Assembly (NCBI RefSeq): GCF_007746795.1
Contig: NZ_CP036343.1
Location: 7,859,310 to 7,923,309, forward strand
From: Gimesia algae
Lineage (GTDB): Bacteria; Planctomycetota; Planctomycetia; Planctomycetales; Planctomycetaceae
Length of the DNA: 64,000 nt
Direction: 5' to 3'
The translations under genes and the position numbers were made by a program. The notes under the pieces were generated by a model. The model did no database searches, was not told the origin of the DNA, and worked only from the letters and a program-made list of their open reading frames with translations. Of the stretch, positions 47,255 through 64,000 are shown piece after piece (the first letter of the stretch is position 1; every line of letters begins with the position of its first letter).

Positions 47255-47471
47255 GAGAAACCTCGATTGCAGTCTGGGGTTTGAAATAGATTGATTTGTA
47301 TAGGAATCTGCAGAAATTATAACACTTGGGGGGGACTTAAGTTAATGGCGATTTCCCGTTATCAGCCCTGTTTCAGCAGATTGAAACAGGAATATTTAAT
47401 TTCTATCCACACAGATCGAGGAATTCGCTATGATGCGAATGTATTAGGATTTAAGACGAATTTTTCAGTGG

Positions 47472-48290
47472 ATGGATTCCTGTCAGATGCAAGTATTTCG
47501 AGTTGTGTTCTCTGTGAGCCTGGTTTTGTGCACCTTCTCTCTGAAAGGCTGTGGTGGCTCTGCCAGTACTGACAGCTCACAACCGGCGTCTGCTGAAAGT
47601 AAACAGCCCTCTCCGGTTGCAACGGCACCAGAGCAGACTGTAGAGACGATTGCGGTTACCGCTGAACCCGTCGATCCCCAGGCAGAAGTCAAAGCCGTTT
47701 TTGAAACGCTGTTGTCAATTCGCACCGAACCTGATCCCGATGAATGGATACAGGCTGATAAAAAACTGAGTTCATTTGGCAAGACTGCAGTCCCTACTTT
47801 AAAGGATGCCATGTCACATTCTGATCCCGGTGCCAGAGAACTTGCCAGCATGTATCTGGCCAGTCTGGGTCCGGACGCGAAAGAGGCAGCGCCGGTTCTG
47901 GAGACAGCGCTGCAGGATGCATCTCCGTTTACACAGGTCAATGCGGCCTCAACACTCACGCATTTTCCTGAATATCGAGAGAAAGCCATCCCTGTATTAA
48001 TCAGTCTGACAGAACACCCCGACCCCAATACGCGACTCACATCCATCTACGCCCTGGGAAATCTGGAATCGCAGTCAGCAGATCAATTATCCGCCATCAA
48101 AGCCGCGCTCAACGACTCAGACCCGGATGTTCAATTAGCGGCCATTAAAGTACTCGGCCAGATGGGGAACCCAGCTAAAACAACTCTGACAGAATTGCAG
48201 ACGCTCATCGACAACACTGATACCAGTGAAGTCTTGCGCGAGGCGGCACTCTCTACTAAATCTCAGATCGAGCAGAGTCAGAAAAAATAA
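47472..48290 (+). CDS. HEAT-repeat lipoprotein
   Basis: About 272 residues. A lipobox (LKGC) follows a hydrophobic signal, then a Ser/Pro-rich linker (to about residue 70), then HEAT-like helical repeats such as ASMYLASLGPDAKEAAPVL, AASTLTHFP and IYALGNLESQSADQLSAIKAAL. The protein should be membrane-anchored and act as a scaffold. A second ATG at 47487 is possible. The next gene, after a 444-base leader, starts the pilus operon, but no link is known. Confidence 0.78.
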   Translation: MDSCQMQVFRVVFSVSLVLCTFSLKGCGGSASTDSSQPASAESKQPSPVATAPEQTVETIAVTAEPVDPQAEVKAVFETLLSIRTEPDPDEWIQADKKLSSFGKTAVPTLKDAMSHSDPGARELASMYLASLGPDAKEAAPVLETALQDASPFTQVNAASTLTHFPEYREKAIPVLISLTEHPDPNTRLTSIYALGNLESQSADQLSAIKAALNDSDPDVQLAAIKVLGQMGNPAKTTLTELQTLIDNTDTSEVLREAALSTKSQIEQSQKK

Positions 48291-48734
48291 TTCGATCACG
48301 CCAGCAGCATGCGACTGCTCTGCCAGCAGGCAGGTAACCTATGCCTCAATTCGGCCTGTAGCGATTCTACCGGTTGGAAGACTCTCCTGACTCCCTGCGC
48401 CTTCCGAAATTTATCGGAGAGCCGCCTTTTCCAAAGTTCTTGCGCAATTCTGTTTGACTAACAAATTGCGTGAACTACTTTTACTGGCAGAGAGGGGCAA
48501 CTAACCCGCTCAACGAACACAAACAACAATTTCCTCCGCTTCTTATCGAGGCGAGGATCTACAGCGCGGCAAGGAAAGCTGGGAGCTTTGAGGGGACCTT
48601 GCCGCGCTCTTTTTTTGTCTTGGAACCATCTGGCTTGATGGTGCTGGATACTCAGATCATGTGTGATGTTTCTGGACCGTTGAAAGCATGACAACAGATC
48701 AGCACCCTCAAGCGGTATTATATTGGAAGAGCTC
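48291..48734 (+). other. Leader region of the pilus-like operon with hairpins and a terminator
   Basis: No gene supported. A hairpin CCTCCGC/GCGAGG (around 48532-48556, one bulge) and the terminator hairpin at 48563-48616 lie 118-200 bases before the first pilin start. This arrangement fits an attenuator or a riboswitch-like leader. It could alternatively be the end of a small RNA or of a long HEAT-gene 3' tail. I could not match it to a known riboswitch class. Confidence 0.4.
48563..48616 (+). terminator. Strong intrinsic terminator in the pilus operon leader
   Basis: The 12-bp outer stem AGCGCGGCAAGG/CCTTGCCGCGCT (48563-48574 with 48597-48608) encloses a second hairpin AAAGCT-GGG-AGCTTT. 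It is followed by CTTTTTTT. It lies 273 bases after the nearest upstream stop, so it may end a leader transcript rather than the HEAT gene. Confidence 0.85.
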
Positions 48735-49337
48735 ATGGCAACCAGAAAACTGTGGTTGCAGCGATCCTGCCGCACCGGATTTACTCTGATTGAATCTCTC
48801 GTCTCTGTGACAATCACAGCGATTGCCGGAGCCGCTCTATTCTCTGCGATTGGCGCTTCCCTCGGTACCTGTTACTCCGCATTGAATCACAACATCGGAT
48901 CAGGTCTCGCCGACCAGATGCTGGAAGAACTCTCAGCAGTCCGTTTTCCGGTCACCAGTGATACCAGGCCCGGGTTTCAAAGTTCCCGCGAATATTTTGA
49001 TGATCTGGATGACTACGATAGCTGGTCCTCAACACCGCCAGAAAGCAAACAGGGTTATTCGCTGGGCAGAGAACCCGTCACGATTCTGGAAAGATATCCG
49101 ATTTCCCGTCCCAGTCTGCTGACCCCGGATACCGGTTTTTTAAACAGATTGACGCGAGAAGTTTCGGTTGAACGTATTCAGCCCAACAGCGATGGCACGG
49201 GGTGGGTCGTGACTCAAGCTCAGACCAGTTATCGCAGGGTGACTGTCACCATCAAACTGGCCATGAATGCAGACTCACAAAGTCATGTGATTACGGAGGC
49301 AACGAGAATATTCAGTTATGTTCCACTTTCACCCTGA
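48735..49337 (+). CDS. Pseudopilin (GspI/PilV-like)
   Basis: 200 residues. The prepilin peptidase site is RTG|FTLIESLVSV (Gly15, Phe16, Glu20), followed by the hydrophobic helix of a type IV pilin. The C-terminal globular domain resembles minor pseudopilins. It belongs to the pilus or type II secretion machine of this locus. The start at 48735 follows GGAAG; a longer frame from 48723 is not needed. Its 3' end overlaps the next gene by 20 bases. Confidence 0.85.
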   Translation: MATRKLWLQRSCRTGFTLIESLVSVTITAIAGAALFSAIGASLGTCYSALNHNIGSGLADQMLEELSAVRFPVTSDTRPGFQSSREYFDDLDDYDSWSSTPPESKQGYSLGREPVTILERYPISRPSLLTPDTGFLNRLTREVSVERIQPNSDGTGWVVTQAQTSYRRVTVTIKLAMNADSQSHVITEATRIFSYVPLSP

Positions 49338-50247
49338 TAACCTGAAGGCTGTTTTGCCTGTGTTTTCAGAGAGTCCGTTCCACTCAGAACGGACTTGCGT
49401 GCGTTGCTGCGCAGTACGAAAAGAGAACTCCCGTCTAGGTTTCACACTCGTTGAACTGTTGATGTCTATGGCCATCTCTTCCATTCTGATTGTCGCGCTG
49501 GCCGGCATTGTCACTGCCACACAATCCGCCTGGCAGCATACGCGTGGAATAGAAGATTCCCAGGCGCAGATTAATGCAGCCTTCGATCGAATCAAACTGA
49601 TGATCTCGCAGGCAGGCGTTTATCATGTCAGTGGGCAATCTCCGCGGGTCGGAATTGCGGTCGTCACAAATTCCTGGAACAGCATTGATATTCCGAACAC
49701 ACTGGTGGTCTGGTCCGGCGGACGTAACGGAGGCCTCAGCGAACAGGGAACGATCACACGTCTGCCTCAGCTGAGTGAAATCCTGATCTATACCGTCGAT
49801 CCTGCTGATGGACACAACCTGATTGAAATCGCGTTTCCAGATACCAATAGCACAATCGACTTTAACAGTTCCTCTTTCAACAGCACGATCCGCTCTGCCA
49901 TTCAATCGAGCCAGGCAGAATCTACGCTGCTGAGCAATCGGATCAAATGCAGTCAGTATGTCCTCTCCGGAAATCCCTGGGGACCAGCAGCCGGAAATGT
50001 TTTTTTCAGTCTGGTCAAAACTCCCAGCGATTCCAGCCTGAGCAGTGTTTCACCTGGAACGGCTGACTGGATGAATCTTTCCTGGCCTCAGGGAACCGCC
50101 AGTGCCAGCAGTGGACTGCGTCTGGTGACCGTAAACTGCGAAGCACAGTTCGAAACAGCAGAACAGACAGCTTTGAATGAAGTTAATTCCGCATCTGCCT
50201 TACCATTTTTTGCATCCGGTTCGAGGTACTATGCATACGCACCATAA
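49318..50247 (+). CDS. Pseudopilin (GspJ/PilW-like)
   Basis: 309 residues. The prepilin motif is SRLG|FTLVELLMSMAIS (Gly41, Phe42, Glu46), with an unusually long leader of 41 residues if the ATG at 49318 is right. An internal GTG near 49399 would give a 14-residue leader. The globular part is large for a pseudopilin, fitting PilW/GspJ. It overlaps both neighbours, so translation is coupled. Confidence 0.83.
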   Translation: MFHFHPDNLKAVLPVFSESPFHSERTCVRCCAVRKENSRLGFTLVELLMSMAISSILIVALAGIVTATQSAWQHTRGIEDSQAQINAAFDRIKLMISQAGVYHVSGQSPRVGIAVVTNSWNSIDIPNTLVVWSGGRNGGLSEQGTITRLPQLSEILIYTVDPADGHNLIEIAFPDTNSTIDFNSSSFNSTIRSAIQSSQAESTLLSNRIKCSQYVLSGNPWGPAAGNVFFSLVKTPSDSSLSSVSPGTADWMNLSWPQGTASASSGLRLVTVNCEAQFETAEQTALNEVNSASALPFFASGSRYYAYAP

Positions 50248-52198
50248 AGCAGCGCATCTTCGCAGTCTGAAAGCCGACGACAAAAGTCGATCTCTGCTGT
50301 GGAGGAATCTGCGCACTTCGCGCGCGGGGATCTCGATGATCCTGGTGATGTTTGCATTAAGTATGTCGCTGGTGTTGACCTACTCCTTTATCCAGACCCA
50401 GAGCGTACTCACTCAGGTTACCGAAAATGGTTCGAGGCGTGATCTGGCAATGAATGCCGCCCGGGCAGGAATGACGGACGCATTGAATCGATTGAATTCA
50501 CTGGAATGGACCGGAGTAAATGACCAGTATCAGCGCGAGTTTTTCTCAGACTCGGATGGAGACAGTACCTACGCGATCTCCTTTGAAACTACAGGGGATT
50601 CCATCGGTTCCGTTCTGGAATTGAATGCCCACTCGCTGGGCGCCTGGACTTCAGCCACCAACAGCAATATGCGATCTGAGTATCTGATTACGGCAAAAAT
50701 GAGACTGGTGCCTCGATTGACAGGCCGCTCGATATTACCGGGAGACTCCGCTGCCGCGACTGATCAAGTCACGAACTCGGGAGATTTCGATCAGTTCCGG
50801 CAATACGCGCTGTTTGCCGAAACAGGTTCCAGTTCACTCATTCTGGATCCCTGCGACCGCATCGATGGTAATATATGGCTCTATGATAATCTGGTACTGT
50901 ACGAGGACCCTGCCTGGAGTTCTTCGGTTCGGGATGAGTTCCTGGAAGACCTGGGGAAACGGTTTGTTACTTTCCCGGCAGGTTCAACCAGTCTTTCAGA
51001 GGCCACTATTTCTTATCCCCATCCGATCGCGGGGTCGGTGACCTATTATGATTACCCTTCTTCTTCGAGCCGAAGAGATTTGGCAGATCTCAAACTGAAC
51101 TGGTCTACTACCAGTAACCGCCTGCGGATTCCCAGCTCAAATTATTCTGCTTTTTCCAGTTATCGACTATATGAAGGAGGTCCGGTCTATCAGGCGGTTT
51201 CGCTGAACTCCTCATTATATAATGTGACACTGAAGCCGTCTCCAGGAAACCCTCTGGGGATCTTCTATCGCAGTGGCAGTCTGAATGTTTATGACAACGT
51301 TGTGCTACAGGGAACACTGGTCGCTACGTCAAAAATAACGTTCCATGGCAAAGGCATCCATCTCACCTCGTTCAACTGGAAAGGCTCTGACGGCGGATCA
51401 CTGGTGCTCAACGCAGAGCGCTGGCCGCGACTGCCGACAGTCGTAGCAGACGATATTGAATTTGTCCGTGAAACACAAACAACACTCGAAGGAGCCGTCG
51501 TGTGTCATGGTGACGTCAACGGAGCCGGCGGCTCTGTCGATTATGCGAATGTCTCCAACATACAATATTCGGGCACTGCAACAGCGGTTTCGATCGAACA
51601 GCCTTTTAGCACAGTGACGCTCCAGGAATACAAGCTTCTCGACTTGATCTCAAGCAACGGGAAATACGCGATCTGGCTGGAAACGACGGGAACCGGTCAA
51701 ACGGGAACGACGGGATCCTGGTATCCCATCACCGGGGTGGACAGCGCACATCAACAGCTGACCGTCCGGGGGGAGATTGATCATCCTTCGCCCACCGGCT
51801 ATTTAATCAAACGTCACAAGCAGGAACTGACGCAGATTCGCGGTCCCATTTGTGCTGAAACATATAATTTTAATCGTCTCGATGAATGGGTGCTTTCCAG
51901 TTCGTACTGGAATGACCGTAAACATAAGTGGGACTATGAAAACGACGTGCGACGATATTTTGGCTACTCTGAAATCCCATTCAGTGAGTGGCTGGAGAAC
52001 CCTTACAATTTTACTGGCTGGAGTTCGTATTACCAGTCTTACGGACTCAGCCTGGAACCCACACTGCATATTCAGCATTTGAAAGATCAGGCATATCGTT
52101 GGGAACCGCCGTTATTTCAGCCTTTCGATGGAGGAGAGACGACTCCGGAACTCTCCGGGTATCGCTGGTCGCTGATTGACTGGAAAGAGACTCAATAA
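50231..52198 (+). CDS. Large PilX-like minor pilin
   Basis: 655 residues, much larger than ordinary minor pilins. The N-terminal helix GISMILVMFALSMSLVLTYSF has no prepilin FTLIE motif and resembles PilX N-termini. The rest is beta-rich and repetitive: GSSSLILDPCDRIDGNIWLYD, LNVYDNVVLQGTLVATSK, and GAVVCHGDVNGAGGSVDYAN suggest a beta-helix or bactofilin-like stack. It may form an adhesive or tip structure. Start at 50231 has GAGG upstream; the 17-base overlap with the previous gene supports it. Function is inferred from position. Confidence 0.72.
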   Translation: MHTHHKAAHLRSLKADDKSRSLLWRNLRTSRAGISMILVMFALSMSLVLTYSFIQTQSVLTQVTENGSRRDLAMNAARAGMTDALNRLNSLEWTGVNDQYQREFFSDSDGDSTYAISFETTGDSIGSVLELNAHSLGAWTSATNSNMRSEYLITAKMRLVPRLTGRSILPGDSAAATDQVTNSGDFDQFRQYALFAETGSSSLILDPCDRIDGNIWLYDNLVLYEDPAWSSSVRDEFLEDLGKRFVTFPAGSTSLSEATISYPHPIAGSVTYYDYPSSSSRRDLADLKLNWSTTSNRLRIPSSNYSAFSSYRLYEGGPVYQAVSLNSSLYNVTLKPSPGNPLGIFYRSGSLNVYDNVVLQGTLVATSKITFHGKGIHLTSFNWKGSDGGSLVLNAERWPRLPTVVADDIEFVRETQTTLEGAVVCHGDVNGAGGSVDYANVSNIQYSGTATAVSIEQPFSTVTLQEYKLLDLISSNGKYAIWLETTGTGQTGTTGSWYPITGVDSAHQQLTVRGEIDHPSPTGYLIKRHKQELTQIRGPICAETYNFNRLDEWVLSSSYWNDRKHKWDYENDVRRYFGYSEIPFSEWLENPYNFTGWSSYYQSYGLSLEPTLHIQHLKDQAYRWEPPLFQPFDGGETTPELSGYRWSLIDWKETQ

Positions 52199-52216
52199 TT
52201 TTGTTAGTGAGATCAG

Positions 52217-52843
52217 ATGCAACATATTGATCGTAATCATCGGCTAAGTGGCTGGCATCCTTTTCAACGAAGGAGGCCCACGGAAAACCTGCGCGCCGAC
52301 AGAAACGGTTTCACACTGGTCGAACTGATGATTGTGGTGCTGTTGCTCTCGATTCTGGCAACCGTGTCCCTGATTTCAACCGACAGCAGTGGTTCGCTGG
52401 CTTTGGATGCCACCGCACGCATGCTGGTGGCTGACTTACATCTGGCACGCAACCACGCCATCAAATTCAATTCAGAATACAAGGTCGATTTTGACCTCAA
52501 TGCACAAACCTATGAAATATTGCATACCGGCTCTGGTGATTTACCGGTTCCCAAAAACAACCTTGCGGGATCAGCCGCGGATTCAGATCGCTACCTCAAA
52601 CAGATACAGATTGATTCTCTGAATCTGCCCGGGCAGGCGGTACTCAGACAAATCAAATTGAAAACATCCGATTCAGCTGTCAGCGAACTCACATTCGGCC
52701 CAACGGGTGGCACGGGCCCTGTGCGCAACGAAGACACAATCCTGATGTTAACAACTCAAAAATATGGAAATACGTTTTACATCCTCATCACCGTTTCCTG
52801 GGTTACAGGCCAGGCATGGGTTGGTGAGATTCAAACATTATAA
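52217..52843 (+). CDS. Pseudopilin (GspH/FimT-like)
   Basis: 208 residues. A 31-residue leader ends at Gly31 before FTLVELMIVVLLLSILATVS (Glu36), the typical cleavage site and helix. DLHLARNHAIKFNSEYKV fits the GspH/FimT family. Third of three prepilin-motif proteins in the locus. Confidence 0.86.
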   Translation: MQHIDRNHRLSGWHPFQRRRPTENLRADRNGFTLVELMIVVLLLSILATVSLISTDSSGSLALDATARMLVADLHLARNHAIKFNSEYKVDFDLNAQTYEILHTGSGDLPVPKNNLAGSAADSDRYLKQIQIDSLNLPGQAVLRQIKLKTSDSAVSELTFGPTGGTGPVRNEDTILMLTTQKYGNTFYILITVSWVTGQAWVGEIQTL

Positions 52844-52881
52844 CACCCGGCGACTCATTCACTGAAAACGAAACTGAAAAC

Positions 52882-53952
52882 ATGATTTCAATCAAACGAT
52901 CACAATATAGTCCCATCGGTTTACAGCTGGGCCCGAATTCCGTGACCCTCGTTCAGTTAACCGGTCCACGCAATAATCGCATTGTCCATGCGATAGCACA
53001 GGAACAGTTTGACTTTGACGAGAAACTGACGCTCGACGAACGTGATGCAAAAATCGCAGCGGAAATCCGTCGCATCCTTTCCGATCATCATTTCAAAGGT
53101 CGCCGAGTGACCAGTTGCCTGGGATCACAGGAACTGTTCATCCAGAATATTCGACTACCACAACTGCCGGCAGAAGAACTCACCAAAGTGGTTGCCTGGG
53201 AAGCAGAAGAAAGACTGCCCTATCCGGTGGCAGACGCAGAAATTCGTCATCTACCCGCTGGTCAGGTGCGGCAGGAAGCCAATACCAAACAGGAAGTCAT
53301 TCTGCTGGCCTGCCATAATGGAATTCTGGAACGCCATCTGAATCTCCTGGATCTGGCCGGGTTAAATGCGGTCGCCATTGACGTGGAACCTTCGGCAACT
53401 CTGCGGTGTTTTCATGACGGCGCACGGGGGGCACATTCGAATTCTGCCAATTGTTATCTGAATTTTGGGGAAGCGGCTACGACAGTCATTTTTGCTGATC
53501 AGCAAAATGTGCTCTTTCTGAAATATATCATGCAAGGCAGTAACCAACTTGATCGTGCTGTCGCAGAAAACCTGGATTTGCCGCTCTCTGAAGCGATTCG
53601 CATGCGAAATATTGTCACCAACTCCACTTCACTGGATGCCAGTGATGAACTGCATCGTTCCGTCATCGATTCGATTCGCTCTCTGCTGGAATCGATCAGC
53701 ACAGAAATTGAAAACTGTCTGCGCTATTACAAAGTGACCTTCCGCGGGAAAAAACTGAATCAGCTGATCGTCACAGGTAATGAATGCAGCCCCTGGCTGA
53801 TTGACTTTCTTTCAGAACGATTAAATACCGATTGCGAAATGGGCAATCCCTTTGAAAGCCTGGAACGCTGGCCGACTTCCACATCCATTCTGGAACGCCC
53901 CGGCAGATGGACCACAGCGTTGGGCCTGGCTATGAAAGAGAAAACTATTTAG
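52882..53952 (+). CDS. pilM: PilM-like actin-fold cytoplasmic protein
   Basis: 356 residues. PilM forms the cytoplasmic part of the pilus alignment complex and binds the N-terminus of PilN. GLQLGPNSVTLVQL, the ATPase-like RLPQLPAEELTKVVAWEAEERL and the SEAIRMRN region match FtsA/PilM. It is followed by pilN after 99 bases. Confidence 0.88.
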   Translation: MISIKRSQYSPIGLQLGPNSVTLVQLTGPRNNRIVHAIAQEQFDFDEKLTLDERDAKIAAEIRRILSDHHFKGRRVTSCLGSQELFIQNIRLPQLPAEELTKVVAWEAEERLPYPVADAEIRHLPAGQVRQEANTKQEVILLACHNGILERHLNLLDLAGLNAVAIDVEPSATLRCFHDGARGAHSNSANCYLNFGEAATTVIFADQQNVLFLKYIMQGSNQLDRAVAENLDLPLSEAIRMRNIVTNSTSLDASDELHRSVIDSIRSLLESISTEIENCLRYYKVTFRGKKLNQLIVTGNECSPWLIDFLSERLNTDCEMGNPFESLERWPTSTSILERPGRWTTALGLAMKEKTI

Positions 53953-54051
53953 AGCCTGAAGCAGTTCGGCATAAAAATTATAGATACCCTGATTCAGTAA
54001 CACGGATGTGAAATATAAGCCATCCGAAAAGACCCCGCTAAGGGCGAGAAT

Positions 54052-54792
54052 ATGATACCTGAAATCGATTTTTTACCAGCCAGTTATCGCGAAGTCAGGA
54101 GGCGGCATCGAAACCGCATCTGGCGAAGAACGATCGTATTGATTTTTCTGACACTGGTCACCTTGAGTACGGTGCGCCAGCGGGAAATTCAACATCAGCT
54201 TCAAACGAAAAAAGAAGCGCTGGAAAAACGTGCGCAGCTGATGAACGATCAACTGGAAGACCCGACCCAACTGACTCTACAAATTCAACAAACGGACATT
54301 CGCGCAGATCTGCTGGCAGGCCTGCAACTGGACGAATCACCGGCTCAGTTACTGAATATGATCAGCCACGCCTTGCCGGAATACGTTTCCCTGAATGAAT
54401 TTCAGTTCACATTTGAAAAAGTCTTTGTCAAAGAAGATGCACAAACTAAAAAAAGTCCCTCCAAAAAGACAGAAGACGAATTGCCGGAACTGGTAGATTT
54501 GAAACAGCTGCAAGGCTTGCACGCCAGGGAAAACCTGGTCATCAATCTGCAGGGAATCTCACCAGACCACCTTTCCATCTCGCGCTACATGTCCAATCTG
54601 GATCAAATGGGCGTCTTCAGAGAAATCGACCTGATTCAATCGAATGAAACCATGTTTGAAGGTCAACCACTGCGTGTGTTTCGACTCAGAATGGTTGTGA
54701 ATTCACCAGGCATGTATGTTCCTAAAATTAATGCGCATTATACCGCCGGTCTGGATCCCTGGATCACGGCAGGAGGCTTGTTCTATGAATGA
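54052..54792 (+). CDS. pilN: PilN-like inner membrane protein
   Basis: 246 residues. The conserved N-terminal EIDFLPASYRE matches the PilM-binding segment, followed by a membrane segment (about 25-42) and a coiled-coil/periplasmic domain. The gene ends in ATGAATGA with pilO, an overlap that couples the two. Confidence 0.85.
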   Translation: MIPEIDFLPASYREVRRRHRNRIWRRTIVLIFLTLVTLSTVRQREIQHQLQTKKEALEKRAQLMNDQLEDPTQLTLQIQQTDIRADLLAGLQLDESPAQLLNMISHALPEYVSLNEFQFTFEKVFVKEDAQTKKSPSKKTEDELPELVDLKQLQGLHARENLVINLQGISPDHLSISRYMSNLDQMGVFREIDLIQSNETMFEGQPLRVFRLRMVVNSPGMYVPKINAHYTAGLDPWITAGGLFYE

Positions 54793-55393
54793 TAAATTAC
54801 GTAGAGACAGTTTGATTACCATCATTGGTCTGTCCATTGTTGTGGCTCTGTTTACCTTTGTCGTGTATTTACCCGGTCTGAAAAGCAAACAGCAGCTGAA
54901 TCAGGAAATCGATGAATTTCATGAGAAAATTTCTGCCATTCCAACCAAAGTGAAACAACTGGAGGAACTGCATCAACAGCTGAATCAGCGTATCGCGTTT
55001 ATCGATCGGCTCAGCCGGAGAATTCCTGTCAGCAAAGATTCACATCAGGTACTGCAACGTGTCGCTTTACTGGCAAAAACAGCCTCGCTCACCGTTTCCG
55101 AATTGAATCCAGGTGAGACGGAAGAACATGCCACCTATACCAGACAGCCCTTTAAATTGAGTATCACCGGTCAGTATGCAGGGCTCCTGCAGTTTCTGAA
55201 TGACTTGGATAAAGAGGAACGCCTGTTTACTGTTAACCAGGTTTCGGTCATCAAACAAGATGGAGATTCTACGGGACTTATCAAGGGAAGCGTCGATCTG
55301 TCGGTTTACGCATTACGCGAGAATCAGAGGGGTTATTCTGATTTTTCCGAAAATAGGGTTAGCAAGACGTTTATTTCAACCGATAAGAGATAA
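54785..55393 (+). CDS. pilO: PilO-like inner membrane protein
   Basis: 202 residues. A membrane segment (about 11-29) is followed by a coiled coil and a periplasmic ferredoxin-like domain with PFKLSITGQYAGLLQFLNDLDKEERLF, the PilO family pattern. The start ATG overlaps the pilN stop. PilN and PilO form a heterodimer bridging PilM to PilP. Confidence 0.85.
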   Translation: MNDKLRRDSLITIIGLSIVVALFTFVVYLPGLKSKQQLNQEIDEFHEKISAIPTKVKQLEELHQQLNQRIAFIDRLSRRIPVSKDSHQVLQRVALLAKTASLTVSELNPGETEEHATYTRQPFKLSITGQYAGLLQFLNDLDKEERLFTVNQVSVIKQDGDSTGLIKGSVDLSVYALRENQRGYSDFSENRVSKTFISTDKR

Positions 55394-55501
55394 GGGTGCA
55401 CTCTGATTCAAGTTGCTCTCAGGCTGTTCCTCGTGAAAAAACAGTTTAGACCAGTTGATGTAACTTCCGGTCTCTCATGGATTTAAAGTGGTGATTCACG
55501 C

Positions 55502-56158
55502 GTGAAAACTTTCAGTGAACAACTTATACACGACTTAAAAGTGAGCTGGCAGAAGACGCTTATATTGAGTCTGTTGCTGCTGGTAGGGATCTATTTCTGG
55601 ATCCCTCCGCTCTATCGAGCCATTCGAGGAAGCGCGAGTACGACAGTCGTCCCAGCTAAGGCAGCCGTAAAAGAAATCCCGCAACGTCCTCCTGTAAAAA
55701 CGGAAATGAGCTTTTCCCAGAGTGAACCGACGGATGAGCCACGTCATTCCTGGGAGAAATTTGATTCGTTAATGCAGACCGATCCACTCGTGCAGTCAGT
55801 GCAGATGGGCGCGATGCAGAAGAATCCGTTTGAAGTCAACCGCGATCAATTTTCGCCCCCTATTCTGTTCGCGGAAGAGCCTGCGGAACCAGTTCAGGAT
55901 CCAGACAAAAACAAACCCAGTCCAGCGCCTGTACTCCCCGAAGATCTGGTTTTGAAAACCACGATCATCGGAAAGACTCGTAAAGCGGCAATTATCAATA
56001 ATAAATTGTACTACGAAGGCAAATCGTTTGAGCACAACGATTCGATTTACGTTCTGGAGCAGGTCGCTGCACGGAATGTGATCTTGAGCCAGGGCGCTCA
56101 CAAGTTTGAATTAAAAATTCAAAATGACCCTTCCGCCTTTATTAAATTTGAACAATAA
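55502..56158 (+). CDS. PilP/GspC-like protein
   Basis: 218 residues with an N-terminal membrane segment (about 19-35), a Pro-rich linker and a C-terminal beta domain: LKTTIIGKTRKAAIINNKLY and GKSFEHNDSIYVLEQV, like the homology region that contacts the secretin. Unlike canonical PilP there is no lipobox, which suggests a GspC-like anchor. The start is GTG. It follows pilO by 108 bases. Confidence 0.78.
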   Translation: MKTFSEQLIHDLKVSWQKTLILSLLLLVGIYFWIPPLYRAIRGSASTTVVPAKAAVKEIPQRPPVKTEMSFSQSEPTDEPRHSWEKFDSLMQTDPLVQSVQMGAMQKNPFEVNRDQFSPPILFAEEPAEPVQDPDKNKPSPAPVLPEDLVLKTTIIGKTRKAAIINNKLYYEGKSFEHNDSIYVLEQVAARNVILSQGAHKFELKIQNDPSAFIKFEQ

Positions 56159-56199
56159 CAGTTCGCATCATTGGCTGATTTAGACTGATTCGAACGATC

Positions 56200-58578
56200 A
56201 TGGATGATGGTCGAAACATGAACAGACAATTTTTTTTACCGGCTTTCTGGGCAACTCTCACGGGACTGTCACTGCTGCTGATTGCTGCCATGACAGACAT
56301 CAAAACGCCACAGTCTCTGTTTATTCCCCCTCAACACTCGATGAACTCATCGCAGAATGTCCCTGAAAACCGAGTTGCAGAAACTTTACCGAGGGCTGTT
56401 CACGTCCAGACCGAATCAACCAAAACGGTGAGCCCGCAATCTCCGTCTGCACCAGTACCAGATGTCACTCAAGCCTCTCAAACACAACTACAGGTCGAAC
56501 CTGCTGTCCTGCCGGCGAACACAGAAACCCGAACCGTTTCTGTCAGAAAACAACCCGTGCGGTCGCGACTGCTCGTGGAACCCGGTATCGAAATTTCTAC
56601 AATTCAGGACAGCAGCCCCCAGACACGGTCTATCAAATTCAACGTCGCCAGTGACGACGACCTGATTGCTCCGCAACGGGAGTCGTCAAAAATGGAACTC
56701 CGTCTGGCCAGTCTGACACAGCAGGTCGATCGGTTAACCAGTCTGCAGTTGCAGGCACAACAGCACTCCAACCTGGAACTGGCTCAAAATACCAACCGCC
56801 TGGAAGAAGCTACGAAACTACTGCAACAGATGCAGCAGATGAATCAGCTTCGTGATCTGGAACGTAAACTGGACGGCATGCAGGCCAAAGACCCGGCTGC
56901 TCCCACACAAAAGAATCCGGAACCACCTGTCACAGCAGCACCCGTGACAGAGGAACCAGAAACCACAAAGAAAAAACCGGTATTGAAAATCAGCCCGAAC
57001 AATGATTCCAGCGAAACATTTTCGCTCCAGATTCAGGATGCCGAAATCATGCATGTCCTGGACATGCTCGGCGAACTATCTGGTTTGAATATCCTGACAG
57101 GGCAGGGCGTTACAGGTACGATTTCGGCAAATTTGAAAAATGTCACACCCGAACAGGCACTGGATGCCATCCTGCGTTCTCGAGATCTGACCTCTGAAAA
57201 AGAAGGGGAGTTCATCTATGTGATGACACAGGCACAACTTGAACAGAAAAAGAAATCCAGCCGTAAAGTCATCACCAAGTTATATAGCCCGTTTTATATC
57301 AGTGCCAAAGAGTTACAGAACCTGATCACCCCCATTCTGACTGAGAACATCGGCATCGTTTCACTGACCACCCCCAGTGAGGTCGGCATCGCACCCGATC
57401 CCACCAGTGCAGGTGGCGACTCCTTTGCGCAGACAGATTCGATCCTCGTACGCGATTATCCCGAAATTCTGGAAGAAGTGGATCGTCTGCTGGAAAAGAT
57501 GGATATCCCACCCATGCAGGTTGTGATCGAAGCGATGATTCTCAGCATCTCCCTGAACGACGATATGAAATTCGGCGTGAATTTTGCCATGTTGAGTGGG
57601 AATAACAAAAACCTGCTCGTTGATGGAAATGGAAATACTCTGAATAATTCCAGCGGGTTCCCGGGTTCGGGTTCGAGTTCCATTGTGCCGCCCACAGGAC
57701 AGTTTGTAGCAGATCTGGCAGGACTGAAATATGGTTTCCTGCATGGAGATATCAGTGGTTTTATTGAAGCACTGGAAGATGTGGCAGAGACCAATCTGAT
57801 CGCTTCACCGCAATTACGTGCGTTAAACAAACAGAAAGCTGAGTTGATCATTGGTGACCGTACCAGTTATTCCACAGTCACCCAAAATGGAAACACTTCG
57901 ATTCAGAACGTAAACTTTCTGGACTCAGGGATTGTATTGAACCTGCGGCCATTTATTACACCCGATGGACAAATCCGCATGGAAGTGCACCCCGAACGCA
58001 GCTCTGCCTCCATCAACCCGAGTACCAATCTCCCCGACCTGAAAACTACCGAGGTGACCACTAACGTCATGGTCCGAGATGGTCATACCGTCGTCATCGG
58101 TGGTTTAATAGAAGAACGTACTTCTGATACCCGGAATCAGGTTCCCTTCCTGGGAGCGATTCCTGTGATTGGCAATGCGTTTCGTCAGCAGCGTGAAATC
58201 ACGAACCGTACGGAATTAATCGTATTGATCACTCCACGAATCGTGCGTCCAGAAGCCGCACAGGCCGAAGGTGAGATGCTGAAATACGAAGGGGCTGAAC
58301 GTCTCGCTAACTTCAAGAAGAGCTTTCTGCCCATTAACCAGGTGCGCATCGTGCAGTCACACATTGAAAGAGCAAAGAAACACCTGCGAACGGGGAATCT
58401 GCCTAAAGCGAAAGAACAGATCAAAATTGCAGTTCGTCTGGACAAAAACAATATCGAAGCGATTCAGCTGAAAAACTATATCGAACAGGCGTTGATCAAC
58501 CGAAATCGGGAGATGATCGGGTTACCGCCTGTGCCTGGTCCGGCAGTTCAGGTTCCGACTCTGGAAGGAGCACCCTGA
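56200..58578 (+). CDS. Secretin (PilQ/GspD family) with extended N- and C-termini
   Basis: 792 residues. A signal-anchor-like hydrophobic N-terminus is followed by a Gln-rich region, then the STN/N-domain FSLQIQDAEIMHVLDMLGELSGLNI and the secretin gate domain: QLRALNKQKAELIIGDRTSY, VIGGLIEERTSD and VPFLGAIPVIGNAF. After the secretin core a TPR-like end (AKKHLRTGNLPKAKEQIKIA) is unusual. It forms the outer-membrane pore. Two ATGs at 56200 and 56218 are possible starts. Confidence 0.9.
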   Translation: MDDGRNMNRQFFLPAFWATLTGLSLLLIAAMTDIKTPQSLFIPPQHSMNSSQNVPENRVAETLPRAVHVQTESTKTVSPQSPSAPVPDVTQASQTQLQVEPAVLPANTETRTVSVRKQPVRSRLLVEPGIEISTIQDSSPQTRSIKFNVASDDDLIAPQRESSKMELRLASLTQQVDRLTSLQLQAQQHSNLELAQNTNRLEEATKLLQQMQQMNQLRDLERKLDGMQAKDPAAPTQKNPEPPVTAAPVTEEPETTKKKPVLKISPNNDSSETFSLQIQDAEIMHVLDMLGELSGLNILTGQGVTGTISANLKNVTPEQALDAILRSRDLTSEKEGEFIYVMTQAQLEQKKKSSRKVITKLYSPFYISAKELQNLITPILTENIGIVSLTTPSEVGIAPDPTSAGGDSFAQTDSILVRDYPEILEEVDRLLEKMDIPPMQVVIEAMILSISLNDDMKFGVNFAMLSGNNKNLLVDGNGNTLNNSSGFPGSGSSSIVPPTGQFVADLAGLKYGFLHGDISGFIEALEDVAETNLIASPQLRALNKQKAELIIGDRTSYSTVTQNGNTSIQNVNFLDSGIVLNLRPFITPDGQIRMEVHPERSSASINPSTNLPDLKTTEVTTNVMVRDGHTVVIGGLIEERTSDTRNQVPFLGAIPVIGNAFRQQREITNRTELIVLITPRIVRPEAAQAEGEMLKYEGAERLANFKKSFLPINQVRIVQSHIERAKKHLRTGNLPKAKEQIKIAVRLDKNNIEAIQLKNYIEQALINRNREMIGLPPVPGPAVQVPTLEGAP

Positions 58579-58580
58579 GC

Positions 58581-59660
58581 ATGAAGCGACTGCACGGCCG
58601 GCCTGCTCGATACCTCAGAATGATGTTCTGTGCAGCTGGTCTCGTCTGTTGTGGTTGTCAGACGGTGCCCGTAACCAGTCTGGCCTTTCTACCTGAGGTT
58701 GGTTCGATACAGAAAACCACAGAACCTCATTACGAGGAACCTGCGGATAGCCTGCCTGCTTCACCTTACAATCAGCAGGCAAACAAACTTGTTCAGCAGG
58801 CGCTCGAACATTATTCGAATGGAGAATTAAAGCGCGCCAAAGTGCTGCTGGCCTCCGCCCGGGATATTGATCCAGGTCATAGTGGCACTTTTGAAATCGA
58901 GGCACAGCTTTCGTATGACATGGGAGACCGCAATCAGTTTTTGCAGTCACTGCGAGCCATCCGGGCAGCCAGTCCTCATGATTCTGACAAGCAGAGTGCC
59001 ATCGGAACGCTGTTCTTTCAGGCAGGCCAGACCCAGGAAGGAATCGCCTGCCTGAAGCGCGCCATCGAGTTAAAACCGTATGATGAAAACTATGCCCTCA
59101 AGCTGGCCGCCTTTTATGAACAGGCGGGCAGGACGGATGAAGCACAGCAGGTCCTGCTCAAAGCGCTGCACACGACTCCCGGGAGTCGACGATTACCGAT
59201 TGCCCTGGGCCGGATCTGTGAAGCCAGCCAGCAGTGGAGTCAAGCCAGCGTCTATTACGCAATGGTCGTCAATCATTTTCCCGAAAACCATGTGTGGCGA
59301 AAACAACGGGCACGTTGCCTGTATTATTCAGGCAATTTCACTGCTGCATTCGAAGAGTTCTCCACCTGTCAGAAAAACGATCCAGAATCGTTGTCATTGG
59401 CGGAAATGATTGCCTTTGGAGACGCCGCATTACAGATTGGGAACCTTGAACAGGCACAATTGCTGTTTGACGATATTTCTGTGAAGCATCAGCGAGAGTT
59501 ACTCCATGTAGAAATATTACGCGGATTGTGCGCAATAAACCGGGGCCAGAGTACCAGTGCAAAAAACATTATCGCTACAGCCCGCAAAAAATGGCCGACC
59601 GATGAGACCCTGCTGGAAGTGGCCGCCTTAATTCCACCAGAACAGTTCACTGTTCGGTAA
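58581..59660 (+). CDS. TPR lipoprotein of the pilus/secretion locus
   Basis: 359 residues. A signal with lipobox VCCGC (Cys26) is followed by about seven TPR units (ALEHYSNGELKRAKVLLASA, IEAQLSYDMGDRN..., AIELKPYDENYALKLAAFYEQAGR). TPR lipoproteins of the PilF/PilW type help assemble secretins in the outer membrane; position two bases after the secretin gene supports this. Confidence 0.83.
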   Translation: MKRLHGRPARYLRMMFCAAGLVCCGCQTVPVTSLAFLPEVGSIQKTTEPHYEEPADSLPASPYNQQANKLVQQALEHYSNGELKRAKVLLASARDIDPGHSGTFEIEAQLSYDMGDRNQFLQSLRAIRAASPHDSDKQSAIGTLFFQAGQTQEGIACLKRAIELKPYDENYALKLAAFYEQAGRTDEAQQVLLKALHTTPGSRRLPIALGRICEASQQWSQASVYYAMVVNHFPENHVWRKQRARCLYYSGNFTAAFEEFSTCQKNDPESLSLAEMIAFGDAALQIGNLEQAQLLFDDISVKHQRELLHVEILRGLCAINRGQSTSAKNIIATARKKWPTDETLLEVAALIPPEQFTVR

Positions 59661-59821
59661 CCTCTCTATGTGGCCGCATTTACATATATTCATACGCCAA
59701 CCACATTCTCTATTCCGAAATTGGACAATCGGCAGATTGTAACCTAGATTTTAAATGTGAGTTATCTCCCTGACGGCCCTGTTGCAGTCGGTAGAGTTCA
59801 ACTCGTCTCGGAACTTTTAAT

Positions 59822-61336
59822 GTGAACAATGTTTTTCAGCAGATTTATTCGGCTGAGAAAGAACTGGCTATGAATCTTTCTGCCAAATACTGGTTTCTGA
59901 TTCTGCTCCTGCTGACAGTGAGTTGTGTAGACAATCTGCTGGTCATCAGCCAGATAGTAAGTCCAGGCTACGCTCTGGTGATCGCTTTAATCTCTTCACT
60001 GGCAGGCTGGGCCTGGTTAATGAAAAGCATCAAAAACGATCAGCAGCAGATCACGGCTTGCCTGAGAAACCCTGAATTAGCGCGTCCCGGACTCCAGCGC
60101 AAGAACTTTTACGGAAATATTTTCGCAGAGGCAATCCACAAAATTGAAGAATCCGACTCGGATTTGACCACGACCAATCAGGTCAAAACCATGCTCAAAG
60201 CCAAGGTGAATTCCCTGTTGAAAAAAGAGGCACTGGTCGAATCTGTCCTCGATAACCTGGAGACGGGAATCCTGGTCTTTGATGCCAAACAGGAACTGGA
60301 TTTTTCTAACCAGGCTGCGAATTCGTTTCTGCTCACAGGAACGGATCAGAATCAAACGACCAGCGAATCCGGTCTCTCGCTGGGAAAACCTGTTGTAGAG
60401 CAAACGGTCATTCCGGAACTGGCAAAACTACTGGCAAAAACCATAGAGCGGAAAGAAGCGACTTTTCGCAGACGTACCGAATTCGAATTTACCAGCAACG
60501 GTGTGAAAACCCAATATCGTGCTATTGCCACGAATCTCAGTGATGAGAATCAGGTCGCCTTGGGAACGGTGGTCGTAGTAGAAAATATCGGCGAAGAAGC
60601 CGACGAGAAAACTCAACACGCTGAATTCGTCTCCTCGGTCGCACATGAACTGAAAACTCCCATGTCAGGCATTAAAGCCTACATTGAAATGCTGCTTGAC
60701 GGTGATTGTGAACCCGATGAAGCAGCCGAGCTATATGGATTCATCAATGACCAGATTGATCGATTGACCCGCCTGGTCAACAGCATGCTGAACCTGGCAC
60801 GCATTGAGAGTGGCGTCGTCGAAATTAAAAGACACGATCATGAACTGAATGACATTCTGAAAACAGCATCCGATGTCATTTCGCCTACCGCCACCGAAAA
60901 AGATATCACATTTACAGCAGAATTGAGTGACATGTACCTGCCCGTGTTTGTGGATAAAGACATGCTGGGGCAGGCGATCATCAACCTGTTGTCGAATGCG
61001 GTTAAGTATACACCAAACGGGAGAGAAGTCCGGCTCCGCAGCCGAATGGAAGATACGTCTGCCGTCATTGAAGTCCGCGATACCGGAATGGGAATCCCGG
61101 AAAATTCGTTGCCTCACATTTTTGATCGTTTCTATCGTGTTCCGGAAAATAATCGCTCCGCTGCGGGTACCGGCCTGGGGCTGGCTCTGGTCCATTTTAT
61201 CGTCACCAACGTGCACAACGGTTCGATTTCAGTTCAATCCCAAGTCGACAAAGGCACCTGTTTTACGGTCACGATTCCACTGGGACATAAAGAACAGAAA
61301 CGAAAAAAACACCTGGCCCCGCCAGCAAACGCCTGA
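59822..61336 (+). CDS. Sensor histidine kinase with PAS domain
   Basis: 504 residues. Two hydrophobic segments (about 23-45 and 50-68) give a membrane hairpin, then a PAS-type domain (about 138-255), HisKA with phosphorylated His275 in FVSSVAHELKTP, and an HATPase with N388, DTGMG (420-424) and GTGLGLA (449-455). PAS-domain sensing with only a short loop outside suggests an internal signal. The start is uncertain (GTG 59822 or ATG 59870). Lies between the secretin/TPR genes and a lone receiver gene, which is probably its partner. Confidence 0.88.
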   Translation: MNNVFQQIYSAEKELAMNLSAKYWFLILLLLTVSCVDNLLVISQIVSPGYALVIALISSLAGWAWLMKSIKNDQQQITACLRNPELARPGLQRKNFYGNIFAEAIHKIEESDSDLTTTNQVKTMLKAKVNSLLKKEALVESVLDNLETGILVFDAKQELDFSNQAANSFLLTGTDQNQTTSESGLSLGKPVVEQTVIPELAKLLAKTIERKEATFRRRTEFEFTSNGVKTQYRAIATNLSDENQVALGTVVVVENIGEEADEKTQHAEFVSSVAHELKTPMSGIKAYIEMLLDGDCEPDEAAELYGFINDQIDRLTRLVNSMLNLARIESGVVEIKRHDHELNDILKTASDVISPTATEKDITFTAELSDMYLPVFVDKDMLGQAIINLLSNAVKYTPNGREVRLRSRMEDTSAVIEVRDTGMGIPENSLPHIFDRFYRVPENNRSAAGTGLGLALVHFIVTNVHNGSISVQSQVDKGTCFTVTIPLGHKEQKRKKHLAPPANA

Positions 61337-61396
61337 GTAGAGAACACAGTTCGCTGCCCCCCCTATGAAAGAAACTGTAAGAAAAGGAGTGAGAAA

Positions 61397-61786
61397 ATGA
61401 ATCACCTGATTTATATTTGTGATGATGATTCGCATATTGTTCGTGCCATCGGCATGAAGCTGAGAAAAGCAGGTTTTGAGGTAGAATGTTTTCCCGATGG
61501 TTTTACATGCTGGGAAAAATCTCAGCAACAGGCACCAGATATGATTATCACAGACCTGCAGATGCCCCGCATGAACGGTCTGGAACTTTGTGAGAAAATT
61601 CGAGCATTAGAAACAACCAGTTTGATCCCGATTACGTTATTAACCGGGAAGGGTTTTGAATTCGATCATGATGAATATATTCAGACTTTGAAAATTACCA
61701 GCGTGATGGTGAAACCATTCAGCCCCAGAAAATTGCTGAATCATGTGCAGGAATCACTGAATCTGACCAATGATGTCATTGCTTAA
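61397..61786 (+). CDS. Single-domain response regulator (CheY-like receiver)
   Basis: 129 residues, receiver only. Acidic pocket D9/D10, phosphoacceptor Asp53 in IITDLQMPRMNG, Thr83 and Lys106 in MVKPFSP. No output domain, so it would act by protein contact, for example with the pilus ATPase or cyclase. Sixty bases after the kinase gene. Confidence 0.88.
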   Translation: MNHLIYICDDDSHIVRAIGMKLRKAGFEVECFPDGFTCWEKSQQQAPDMIITDLQMPRMNGLELCEKIRALETTSLIPITLLTGKGFEFDHDEYIQTLKITSVMVKPFSPRKLLNHVQESLNLTNDVIA

Positions 61787-61824
61787 GTCGCTCAACGAAA
61801 TCAATCATTCTGAAACTATTATCC

Positions 61825-63336
61825 ATGCGAAACTATTATACAGCCATCCAGTTCTGGTCTTATGCTCTGCTGGTAGTCTGTCTTTGTCCGCTCGCCGTAT
61901 TTCTGGGTTCGTACATGGGCTGGCCACGGGGAGCGGCGCCATTGCTGCTGCTCGCACCGCCTACGGTCCTCGCTGCGGTCTCATCTCCACGGATCTGTTA
62001 CTGGACCATCACAGCTCTCTCCGTCGGCTCCTGTTTTGCGGAAACTTACTTCCGCACAGATATCGTTAAGGGCGATAATAACTACGCCCTGAGTATTCTG
62101 AGCGCTGCTGTTCTGATTGGCCTCGTGTTATTGATCGACGTTTATATTGGCAAACTAAAAAGAACACTCTATCAGATTCAGCAACAGAACGATGAACTGG
62201 TTCGCCAATTATACGAATCTCAGAAAGAATCATTTGCAAATCTGCAGAATACTGGCGACGCTGACGAAACAAAACCCAGACAACCTGCTGAATCCAGAGA
62301 TACTCCTGCTGGAGAAGTCGGAGTCAACTATCCGCTGCTCCTGCTGACACTTCAGGACATCGGCCGACGTATCTCTACAAATCAGTCGAACGAGTCTCTG
62401 ATTCCCACGGTCATCAGTACCGCGAAAGCGTCGCTGCAGTGTGAATACTGTCAGGTTTATCTGTGGGACAGTAAATCACGATCTCTGAAAAATGCTCTGC
62501 CAGTCCGTGCCCGGGATCAGTTGAATTATCGACCGGTTCCTGAGAGTGGCGTCGCTGCCTGGGTGATTGAACATCGTCAGATTGTCATGCGAAACGATGC
62601 TGAGCAGGACTATCGACTCAAACGGATCCTGGACGATGATCCACACATGCCTGATGCGATCTCTCCCTTAACCGTCGGTTCTGATCTGATCGGTCTGCTG
62701 GTGATTGATAAAGTGGATGTCGAATCACCTACCATTGGTCGGCTCCTGTATATTCTTTCCAATATCTATGCTCTGGGTATCAAGAATTCCCAGTTGTTTA
62801 AGCGGATTGAAGAAATGGCGAGCCGCGATGGTCTGACTGGTTTGTTCAACCATGCCACCTTCCAGGAAAAACTTCACGAGCTGGTCACACAGGCGGATGC
62901 CCAGTCAAGTCAACTCAGTATCATCATGAGCGACATTGACCACTTCAAATCATTCAACGACACCTACGGCCATCAGGCTGGTGATTTTGTGTTGAAGGAA
63001 GTGGCACGGATCTGGAAAACCGTCATGCCGGAAAAAGCAATTATTGCCCGCTACGGTGGAGAAGAATTCATCGGAGTTCTGCTGGATCATGAATATTCAC
63101 AAGCCATGCAGATTGCCGAAGATCTGCGCGAAACGATGGAAAACTGTCCGATCCTGTTTGAAGGTCAACAGCTGCAGGTCACTGCCAGTTTCGGCGTCAC
63201 CGAATTCAAACATCCGGCGACCACCACAAACGAACTGGTTCGTATCGCCGATGAAAATTTATACAAAGCCAAAGAGGGGGGACGAAATCAAGTCATTGGA
63301 CTCGATCCGAATTCCGCCAGAAAACCCCGTATCTAG
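61825..63336 (+). CDS. Membrane-bound GAF-GGDEF diguanylate cyclase
   Basis: 503 residues. Four hydrophobic segments in the first 110 residues, a coiled-coil region, a GAF domain (about 185-325), and a GGDEF domain with active-site GGEEF (411-415) and metal-binding Asp370 in IMSDIDHFKSFND. The inhibitory RxxD site is absent at residues 402-405 (PEKA), so product feedback by that site is unlikely. Synthesises c-di-GMP. Ten bases before the STAS gene. Confidence 0.9.
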   Translation: MRNYYTAIQFWSYALLVVCLCPLAVFLGSYMGWPRGAAPLLLLAPPTVLAAVSSPRICYWTITALSVGSCFAETYFRTDIVKGDNNYALSILSAAVLIGLVLLIDVYIGKLKRTLYQIQQQNDELVRQLYESQKESFANLQNTGDADETKPRQPAESRDTPAGEVGVNYPLLLLTLQDIGRRISTNQSNESLIPTVISTAKASLQCEYCQVYLWDSKSRSLKNALPVRARDQLNYRPVPESGVAAWVIEHRQIVMRNDAEQDYRLKRILDDDPHMPDAISPLTVGSDLIGLLVIDKVDVESPTIGRLLYILSNIYALGIKNSQLFKRIEEMASRDGLTGLFNHATFQEKLHELVTQADAQSSQLSIIMSDIDHFKSFNDTYGHQAGDFVLKEVARIWKTVMPEKAIIARYGGEEFIGVLLDHEYSQAMQIAEDLRETMENCPILFEGQQLQVTASFGVTEFKHPATTTNELVRIADENLYKAKEGGRNQVIGLDPNSARKPRI

Positions 63337-63346
63337 ATATTAACTC

Positions 63347-63682
63347 ATGCAGATCACAACGGAAATCTTCGGAAATGTCATGGTAGCTCATACACCTGAC
63401 GAATTGACGGATGACACATCCACCGAATTCGTCAATGCGCTGTCTGCTGCCATTAACGATCAACATTATCAGGTTGTGCTGCAGATGGATCGCAGTGAAG
63501 TCCTGGATAGTGCAGGGCTGGAAGCCTTGCTGGATATTCAGGATCTGACCCGCGAACAGGGTGGAAATCTAAAAATCAGTGGCCTGGAAGATCCGGGCAA
63601 GAAAATACTGGAAATCACGCGTCTTGATCAGAGAATCGACCTGTTTGACTCGGTGATCGACGCCGTCTCCAGTTTTCAATAG
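63347..63682 (+). CDS. STAS-domain protein (anti-sigma factor antagonist-like)
   Basis: 111 residues. The STAS core has the phosphorylatable serine in VLDSAGLEALL (Ser55). Such proteins are partners of a serine kinase/phosphatase or act as scaffolds; neither a kinase nor a phosphatase gene of that type is in the window. The gene sits between the cyclase and the ATPase, which is unusual for pilus loci. Confidence 0.85.
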   Translation: MQITTEIFGNVMVAHTPDELTDDTSTEFVNALSAAINDQHYQVVLQMDRSEVLDSAGLEALLDIQDLTREQGGNLKISGLEDPGKKILEITRLDQRIDLFDSVIDAVSSFQ

Positions 63683-63700
63683 AAATTTCAATCGTTAAAC

Positions 63701-64000
63701 ATGAATACCAACTCTCTCCTGCAACCGAAAATGCGACTCGGTGATCTGCTCATCTACAAAGAGTATATCACTCTGGAACAGTTGGAGTCCGCGCTGGCAG
63801 AGCAGTCGCAGGGGGATGGTAGTCAGCTGCTGGGCGAACTGCTGGTCAATCAGGAATATTGTACCGAAGATCAGGTTCTGGAATGCCTGGCGCTGGAATA
63901 TCGGATTCCCTATGTGCAGCTCGACAGCCGCATGTTCGATTCGAAAGTCTTCGATGTCCTGCCCCGCGATTTTGTCGAGAAACATACCGTCCTGCCGTTG
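63701..64000 (+). CDS. PilB/GspE-type ATPase, N-terminal part only (runs past the window)
   Basis: The first 100 residues are seen. Two tandem MshEN-like repeats begin [17 protein letters not shown] and [17 protein letters not shown]. In canonical MshEN c-di-GMP-binding repeats a Gly follows the RLGxxLxxx block; here it is Glu in both repeats, so nucleotide binding is plausible but not assured. The ATPase domain lies outside the window. It is the assembly motor for the pilus or pseudopilus of this locus. Confidence 0.85.

Follow-up and report, generated by a model that had tools for sequence, protein, structure and literature searches.

What role do a histidine kinase, a lone receiver, a diguanylate cyclase and a STAS protein play between the secretin and the motor of a pilus-like machine? 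The question is raised by a stretch of 64,000 nucleotides from Gimesia algae (the window; positions 7859310-7923309 of a single-contig genome of 7.93 Mb), in which a plus-strand run from position 48735 carries pilus-assembly genes, then these four signalling genes, here called the cassette, and then the motor genes PilB, PilT and PilC. The original prediction, made from the letters of the window, held that the signalling genes belong to the machine and switch it through a local cyclic diguanylate (c-di-GMP) and phosphorelay circuit. The locus is read here as a type IVa-like pilus machine with a dedicated motor-control cassette, in which kinase, receiver and STAS protein would form the core and the cyclase would be accessory, a reading to which we assign a probability of about one half.

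Distribution of the Cassette and the Machine

The giant PilX-like protein of the machine (PilX below) is present in 39 of 170 genomes and 14 of 58 genera of the family, in a survey that scored at most seven candidates per genome (at most four in a draw from the phylum), so that misses are possible. PilX passed in 11 of the 294 genomes of the phylum draw, seven of them from this family and four being weak matches outside it. STAS scores were bimodal, with 44 genomes at 90 bits or more and the next match at 44 bits. PilX and STAS occur together in 36 genomes, PilX only in three (G016, G012 and G119), STAS only in eight and neither in 123. Counted by genus, both are present in 12, PilX only in two, STAS only in none and neither in 44; STAS is thus found in 12/14 genera with PilX versus 0/44 without. 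Fisher tests give 1.4e-25 for genomes and 1.0e-10 for genera, figures that are not true probabilities because genomes and genera are related.

Five of the eight genomes with STAS and no PilX match retain part of the machine. In G087 a single contig spans the genes from secretin to PilC; in G108 the first two pilins lie next to the hairpin RNA described below, where a contig ends; G144 and G149 have PilM, PilN and PilP, with PilX not in the stretch read, and PilB is present in G151. PilX is missing, and PilB has no match at E <= 1e-150, in three genomes of genus g56 (G120, G125 and G056), each of which has an eroded cassette: the middle of the kinase is deleted in G125 (L101), most of the kinase and the receiver are gone in G120 (L102), and a short piece of the kinase survives in G056 (L100), whose STAS gene is frame-shifted. 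All four cassette genes are present in five g56 relatives with PilX and PilB (L083-L086, L091). No other observation speaks as strongly for a role of the cassette in the machine as this erosion where the machine is missing. Genus-level co-occurrence of PilX and STAS and erosion without PilX and PilB therefore lead to the conclusion that the cassette serves this machine, and in this respect the original prediction is upheld.

PilX and PilB have also diverged together, their distances correlating at r = 0.83 over 18 taxa, at r = 0.68 over 14 taxa (0 of 2000 permutations) and, without the near-duplicate G107, at r = 0.57 over 13 taxa (26 of 2000 permutations). G013 pairs with G021, and G041 with G049, in both the PilX and the PilB trees, other groups differing between them; the STAS tree is without these two pairs.

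Integrity of the Cassette Genes

All four cassette genes lie on the plus strand and were identified by Pfam: the membrane histidine kinase at 59870..61336 (HisKA 5.9e-18, HATPase_c 2e-28), the lone receiver at 61397..61786 (Response_reg 1.4e-22), the diguanylate cyclase at 61825..63336 (GGDEF 2.9e-43, a weak GAF match and a membrane part recognized by eye) and the STAS protein at 63347..63682 (STAS 4.9e-13). The gaps are short, with 60 bp between kinase and receiver, 38 between receiver and cyclase, 10 between cyclase and STAS, and 18 between STAS and PilB. Aligned cassette members keep the His and ATP-site motifs of the kinase and the Asp and Lys of the receiver, and Asp54-Ser55 of the STAS protein is kept in 16/16. 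The receiver of G078 matches as two overlapping pieces (L056:6463-6845), possibly a frameshift or a sequence error. The cyclase motif GGEEF, intact in the window, occurs in 24 of 25 aligned sequences (the window included), the exception being GRDAF in G021, and no RxxD inhibitory site was seen in the 25 when judged by what we take to be its usual place. No DNA-binding domain was found among the Pfam matches of the cassette proteins.

Gene Order Across Genomes

The original prediction placed the signalling genes between secretin and ATPase, which is confirmed at this locus, and asked whether they always stand there. Within Gimesia they do: all 17 genes keep the same order in each of the 13 genomes for which the full stretch was available (the window, G038, G076-G084, G086 and G088), and the order from secretin to ATPase is identical in 15/15 readable genomes, G087 and G090 being added for this comparison. 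Linkage with all four signalling genes was also found outside Gimesia, in G035 (g36) and G041 (g41). In G016 (g17) the sequence ends inside the kinase, after the TPR gene. Elsewhere the locus is often broken up. The cassette and the assembly genes of G013 (g14, a single contig) are unlinked, at 1.35 versus 4.10 Mb, those of G033 (g34, a single contig) and G107 (g34) lie megabases apart, those of G147 (g35) and G021 (g22) are on different contigs, and in G049 (g49) the cassette is most likely unlinked as well. Placement between secretin and ATPase thus holds for Gimesia, g36 and g41, but as a universal rule it is rejected.

What persists through these rearrangements is the neighborhood of the ATPase: among 12 genera, 11 (g1, g36, g41, g49, g54, g14, g34, g35, g20, g22 and g15) have PilB as the next gene after STAS. 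Linkage counts leave out G085, G089, G012, G014, G019 and G054, where contigs end, and the L113 locus is without the PilB N-terminus; duplicates were counted once (L099 = L015 in part, L034 = L062, L037 = L063, L009 = the window).

Composition of the Machine and Comparison with Known Systems

A Pfam scan bears out the genes, order and strand that had been listed for the run, whose ATPase is PilB. The run opens with prepilin 1 (48735..49337; N_methyl 26 bits), PilV/GspI-like by weak matches below cut-off, and prepilin 2 (49318..50247; N_methyl 28.2 bits), PilW/GspJ-like by position. PilX follows (50177..52198, 673 aa; its true start may be later), and then prepilin 3 (52217..52843; N_methyl 32 bits, GspH 22.7 bits), which is GspH-like. 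The inner assembly genes are PilM (52882..53952; PilM_2 4.7e-17), PilN (54052..54792; PilN 3.4e-9) and PilO (54716..55393; PilO 2.3e-16), the last overlapping PilN as called, so its start may be later. A PilP/GspC-like protein (55502..56158), assigned from its position and from a T2SSB match that is weak and below threshold (0.0056), precedes the PilQ-like secretin (56200..58578; Secretin 2.2e-44) and a TPR lipoprotein (58581..59660; TPR families, lipobox by eye) that is pilotin-like by position. After the cassette, the first 100 codons of PilB (63701..64000) close the window. PilB (582 aa), PilT (356 aa) and PilC (401 aa) continue the run beyond it, adding about 4 kb to the unit as first described. 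All these genes are on the plus strand. The closest solved relative of PilB is that of M. xanthus (6.8e-152).

PilX has no Pfam match up to E 0.1 and no NCBIfam match up to 0.01. Its predicted structure combines a long helix at the N-terminus with a body rich in beta structure (mean pLDDT, a confidence score, of 77.9), and a known fold was rejected, the PDB, the one library searched, holding no match at E <= 0.001. No major pilin was recognized, the locus proteins scanned including just three N_methyl proteins and the rest of the genome not being searched.

With type IVa pili the locus shares PilMNO, the PilP-like protein (by position and weak match only), the secretin, PilB with its MshEN domain, PilT, PilC and minor prepilins, and PilT, which is missing at the locus in g34, g35, g20, g36, g22 and g56, here passes TIGR01420 with 421.1 bits against a cut-off of 319.1. 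In contrast, PilB (615.5 against 675.65 bits), PilM (115.4 against 133) and PilQ (236.8 against 284.35) all fall under their NCBIfam cut-offs, and because of this the machine is called type IVa-like and not type IVa. Known pil loci can contain the two-component genes PilS-PilR; here a lone receiver, a cyclase and a STAS protein replace the PilR-type DNA-binding regulator, and the major pilin is not recognizable among the scanned proteins. Type II secretion systems have in common with the locus the GspH/I/J-like minor pilins, the secretin and a GspF-like PilC (365.8 bits against a cut-off of 424), but differ in that PilT and PilMNO are present here and that the GspE (599 against 630.25 bits) and GspD (216.8 against 351.35 bits) models score below cut-off.

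Regulatory parallels are likewise partial. The HptB-HsbR-HsbA-HsbD phosphorelay of Pseudomonas aeruginosa, which has effects on type IV pili, contains a cyclase bound by a STAS-type protein, but there an Hpt protein and HsbR intervene and flagellar genes are linked (PMC5085249). As in the c-di-GMP control of MshE and PilB (PMC5013675, PMC11731258), the extension ATPase has an MshEN domain with a complete motif I, but unlike in that control motif II is here without its Gln. With the RsbV/SpoIIAA partner-switch module the locus shares the Asp-Ser pair of the STAS protein, while an RsbW-type kinase and a PP2C phosphatase are not among the scanned locus proteins, genes elsewhere not being searched.

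A second type of planctomycete locus (G008, G018, G040, G050 and G051), picked by PilM alone and with the domains of two loci checked, has the order kinase-STAS-PilB-PilC in 5/5 where PilB is in hand, and a lone receiver ahead of the kinase in 4/5. It differs in that a cyclase was not found between these genes, in its gene order and in keeping the motif II Gln of PilB in 4/5. Kinase and STAS are therefore associated with the ATPase beyond the locus of the window as well.

The Gap Before the Kinase

About 209 bp separate the end of the TPR gene from the kinase ATG at 59870, which is most likely the true start, in preference to the first GTG of the open reading frame (59822), because it is the one kept in 15 Gimesia genomes. 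Ahead of the kinase lies a promoter-like element, TGGACA-N17-TAGATT (59722..59750, plus strand), which is conserved with its surroundings in 15/15 Gimesia with the gap in hand and is the sole such site genome-wide at up to three mismatches. A generic promoter scan gave 10 sites against 17.2 in shuffles, fewer than in shuffled sequence, so the evidential weight rests on the conservation of the element. A small plus-strand hairpin of nine pairs (59832..59860, approximate ends) spans the likely ribosome-binding site of the kinase, and one of its nine pairs is altered on both sides, in 6 of 15 genomes.

A single transcript for the whole run is doubtful, because the conserved promoter-like element splits the assembly genes from the cassette, and Gimesia can probably transcribe the cassette and motor genes separately from the assembly genes. 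Internal promoters and terminators between signalling and pilus genes were named by the original prediction as grounds for its refutation; a promoter-like element does stand there, but the TPR-kinase gap contains no plus-strand terminator-like site.

Proposed Function of the Cassette

The signalling set points to a putative dedicated switch for the fibre. The membrane kinase would phosphorylate the lone receiver, and the output would most likely be a protein contact at the motor, which is favored because the cassette has no DNA-binding domain and because STAS remains beside the ATPase in loci that have come apart. The STAS protein may be an adaptor switched at its Ser, with PilB and, in cassettes that have one, the cyclase as its targets, while the membrane cyclase, as an accessory arm, would make c-di-GMP near the MshEN domain of PilB and so tune extension versus retraction. 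In Gimesia the cassette and motor genes would be expressed apart from the assembly genes. Contacts of these types have precedents: the receiver PixE is thought to bind PilB1 (PMC7690835), the STAS protein HsbA binds the cyclase HsbD (PMC5085249), and the cyclase SadC interfaces with PilO (PMC11656802). A more specific version is offered tentatively, in which kinase and receiver toggle the docking of a stand-alone STAS protein on the extension ATPase as a clutch, and the membrane cyclase adds a second, optional input that is retained where the pilus is able to retract; such a logic, common to two kinds of planctomycete secretin machine, might be an old design of the group.

Several observations weigh against a dedicated motor-control cassette of this kind. 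STAS divergence tracks that of PilX less well (r = 0.46, 11 of 2000 permutations), the three genomes with eroded cassettes are drafts from one genus, and in g56 the kinase-receiver-cyclase-STAS group stands alone, with PilB-PilC on other contigs. The motif II Gln of PilB is replaced by Glu or Asp in 36/36 loci, and the c-di-GMP-motif scores of PilB are the same with and without a cyclase: three loci without one score 50.9, 51.7 and 55.9 bits and five with one 46.8, 49.5, 51.0, 51.1 and 55.0 bits, and a link between cyclase loss and decay of this motif is rejected. Joint loss of cyclase and PilT is rejected as a rule and amounts to a hint (p = 0.09), genera counted by hand from locus listings having both genes in six cases, the cyclase only in three, PilT only in none and neither in three. 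The precedent of HsbA is not a clean one, since its deletion left twitching unaffected in P. aeruginosa (PMC5085249).

The strongest competitor of the motor-contact reading is a partner switch, which ranks as the main rival because the STAS protein resembles anti-sigma antagonists, its closest solved relatives being the anti-sigma-factor antagonists TM_1081 and SpoIIAA. The STAS protein would then be an anti-anti-sigma factor, kinase and receiver would feed an unlinked anti-sigma kinase and phosphatase, and a sigma factor would drive the pilus genes, perhaps through the element before the kinase. The Asp-Ser pair kept in 16/16, whose Ser we take to be the SpoIIAA-type phosphosite, fits such a scheme, as does the presence of a conserved, genome-unique promoter-like element. 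Yet the locus proteins scanned, to which the search was confined, include neither an anti-sigma or RsbW-type kinase nor a PP2C phosphatase nor a sigma factor, and the way in which STAS keeps with the ATPase on break-up of the locus is better explained by protein contact, so that a partner switch is possible but doubtful. Less still can be said for mere neighborhood by descent, with the place of the signalling genes kept by vertical inheritance while they serve something else. Several genera with the cassette unlinked from the assembly genes, and g56 with it unlinked from PilB, would suit this reading, as would a cyclase ortholog without PilX in G018, but genus-level co-occurrence, STAS-PilB adjacency in 11/12 genera and erosion in 3/3 genomes without PilX and PilB make it very improbable.

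Closer to the original prediction is a c-di-GMP circuit with the cyclase as main output, the MshEN domain of PilB as receptor and the other genes merely regulating the cyclase. PilB passes the NCBI c-di-GMP-motif cut-off (49.7 versus 38) and keeps the six key residues of motif I in 36/36 loci, the cyclases have an intact GGEEF in 24/25 and no RxxD seen, and PilT never stands at the locus without the cyclase (0/6 genera with PilT). An MshEN c-di-GMP receptor consists of two 24-residue motifs whose key residues include both Gln (PMC5013675, PMC11731258). PilB does not have both, though it passes the NCBI domain model, its motif II Gln being lost throughout, and the turn glycine of its motif I is altered in 13/15 Gimesia. 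The cassette is also without a cyclase in g34, g35 and g20, where kinase, receiver, STAS and PilB are retained, and no cyclase ortholog was found elsewhere in any of ten genomes searched at E <= 1e-30 (G019, G033, G107, G108, G109, G144, G147, G149, G151 and G155). Moreover, three PilZ proteins encoded outside the locus offer alternative receptors for c-di-GMP. A circuit built around the cyclase is thus unlikely, and c-di-GMP control of PilB is unproven because the cyclase is absent in three genera and motif II is without Gln in every locus. The predicted local switch survives in part: its genes are tied to the machine, their catalytic motifs are kept and PilB passes the motif cut-off, but c-di-GMP is not a constant part of it. 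A local switch for the machine, built on kinase, receiver and STAS protein, is plausible.

The Upstream Hairpin RNA and Other Genomic Observations

Just upstream of the pilins, at 48521-48623 of the window (plus strand), lies a hairpin RNA with a U-tract. Among 12 distinct sequences, seven of its 18 pairs change on both sides, each of the seven lying in the outer stem of 12 pairs; 98.6% of cells pair, and the covariation score was reached by 0 of 500 shuffles; one of five measures, the number of pair types, was not above shuffles. Of the 39 PilX genomes, 34 carry the RNA on the PilX contig, upstream of that gene by no more than 3 kb, two have it on another contig and three show none. It is also found where PilX is missing, in 141/170 genomes and 48/58 genera of the family; since most of these 141 genomes have no PilX, a pilus-specific leader is rejected. 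No gene family was common to more than six of the 24 neighborhoods compared. A known Rfam RNA in 47000-64000 is likewise rejected, the sole match up to E 5 being a miRNA model (0.43, minus strand) far below cut-off. A promoter-like TTTGAC...CTATGTTT is seen by eye ahead of the RNA in many genera, and in G018, which has no PilX, the RNA is directly followed by a cyclase ortholog of 37% (L142:4201-5933; G018:C1:5090200-5091932).

In the genome of the window (G000), further pilus or secretion loci lie at 984481-985521, 7010000-7029999 and 6684000-6703999 of G000:C1, with 15 T2SSE matches genome-wide, and there is a second PilM, of a type that almost every genome of the family carries. In most single-contig Gimesia the locus described here is within about 25 kb of a contig end (7.91 of 7.93 Mb in G000:C1), a position probably near the replication origin; the locus of G038 is at that position and that of G078 is mid-contig.

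Significance

In the literature searched, which left most subscription papers outside its coverage, no STAS protein was found as a partner of a pilus motor. Planctomycetes have surface fibres of unclear make-up, for which a role in catching carbohydrates has been proposed (PMC8303584). The locus names one machine that could make planctomycete fibres, together with a signalling set that is tied to that machine by descent. The genera offer natural contrasts, with cyclase and PilT present or absent, the cassette linked or unlinked, and its genes intact or eroded, and these make the role of each part testable.

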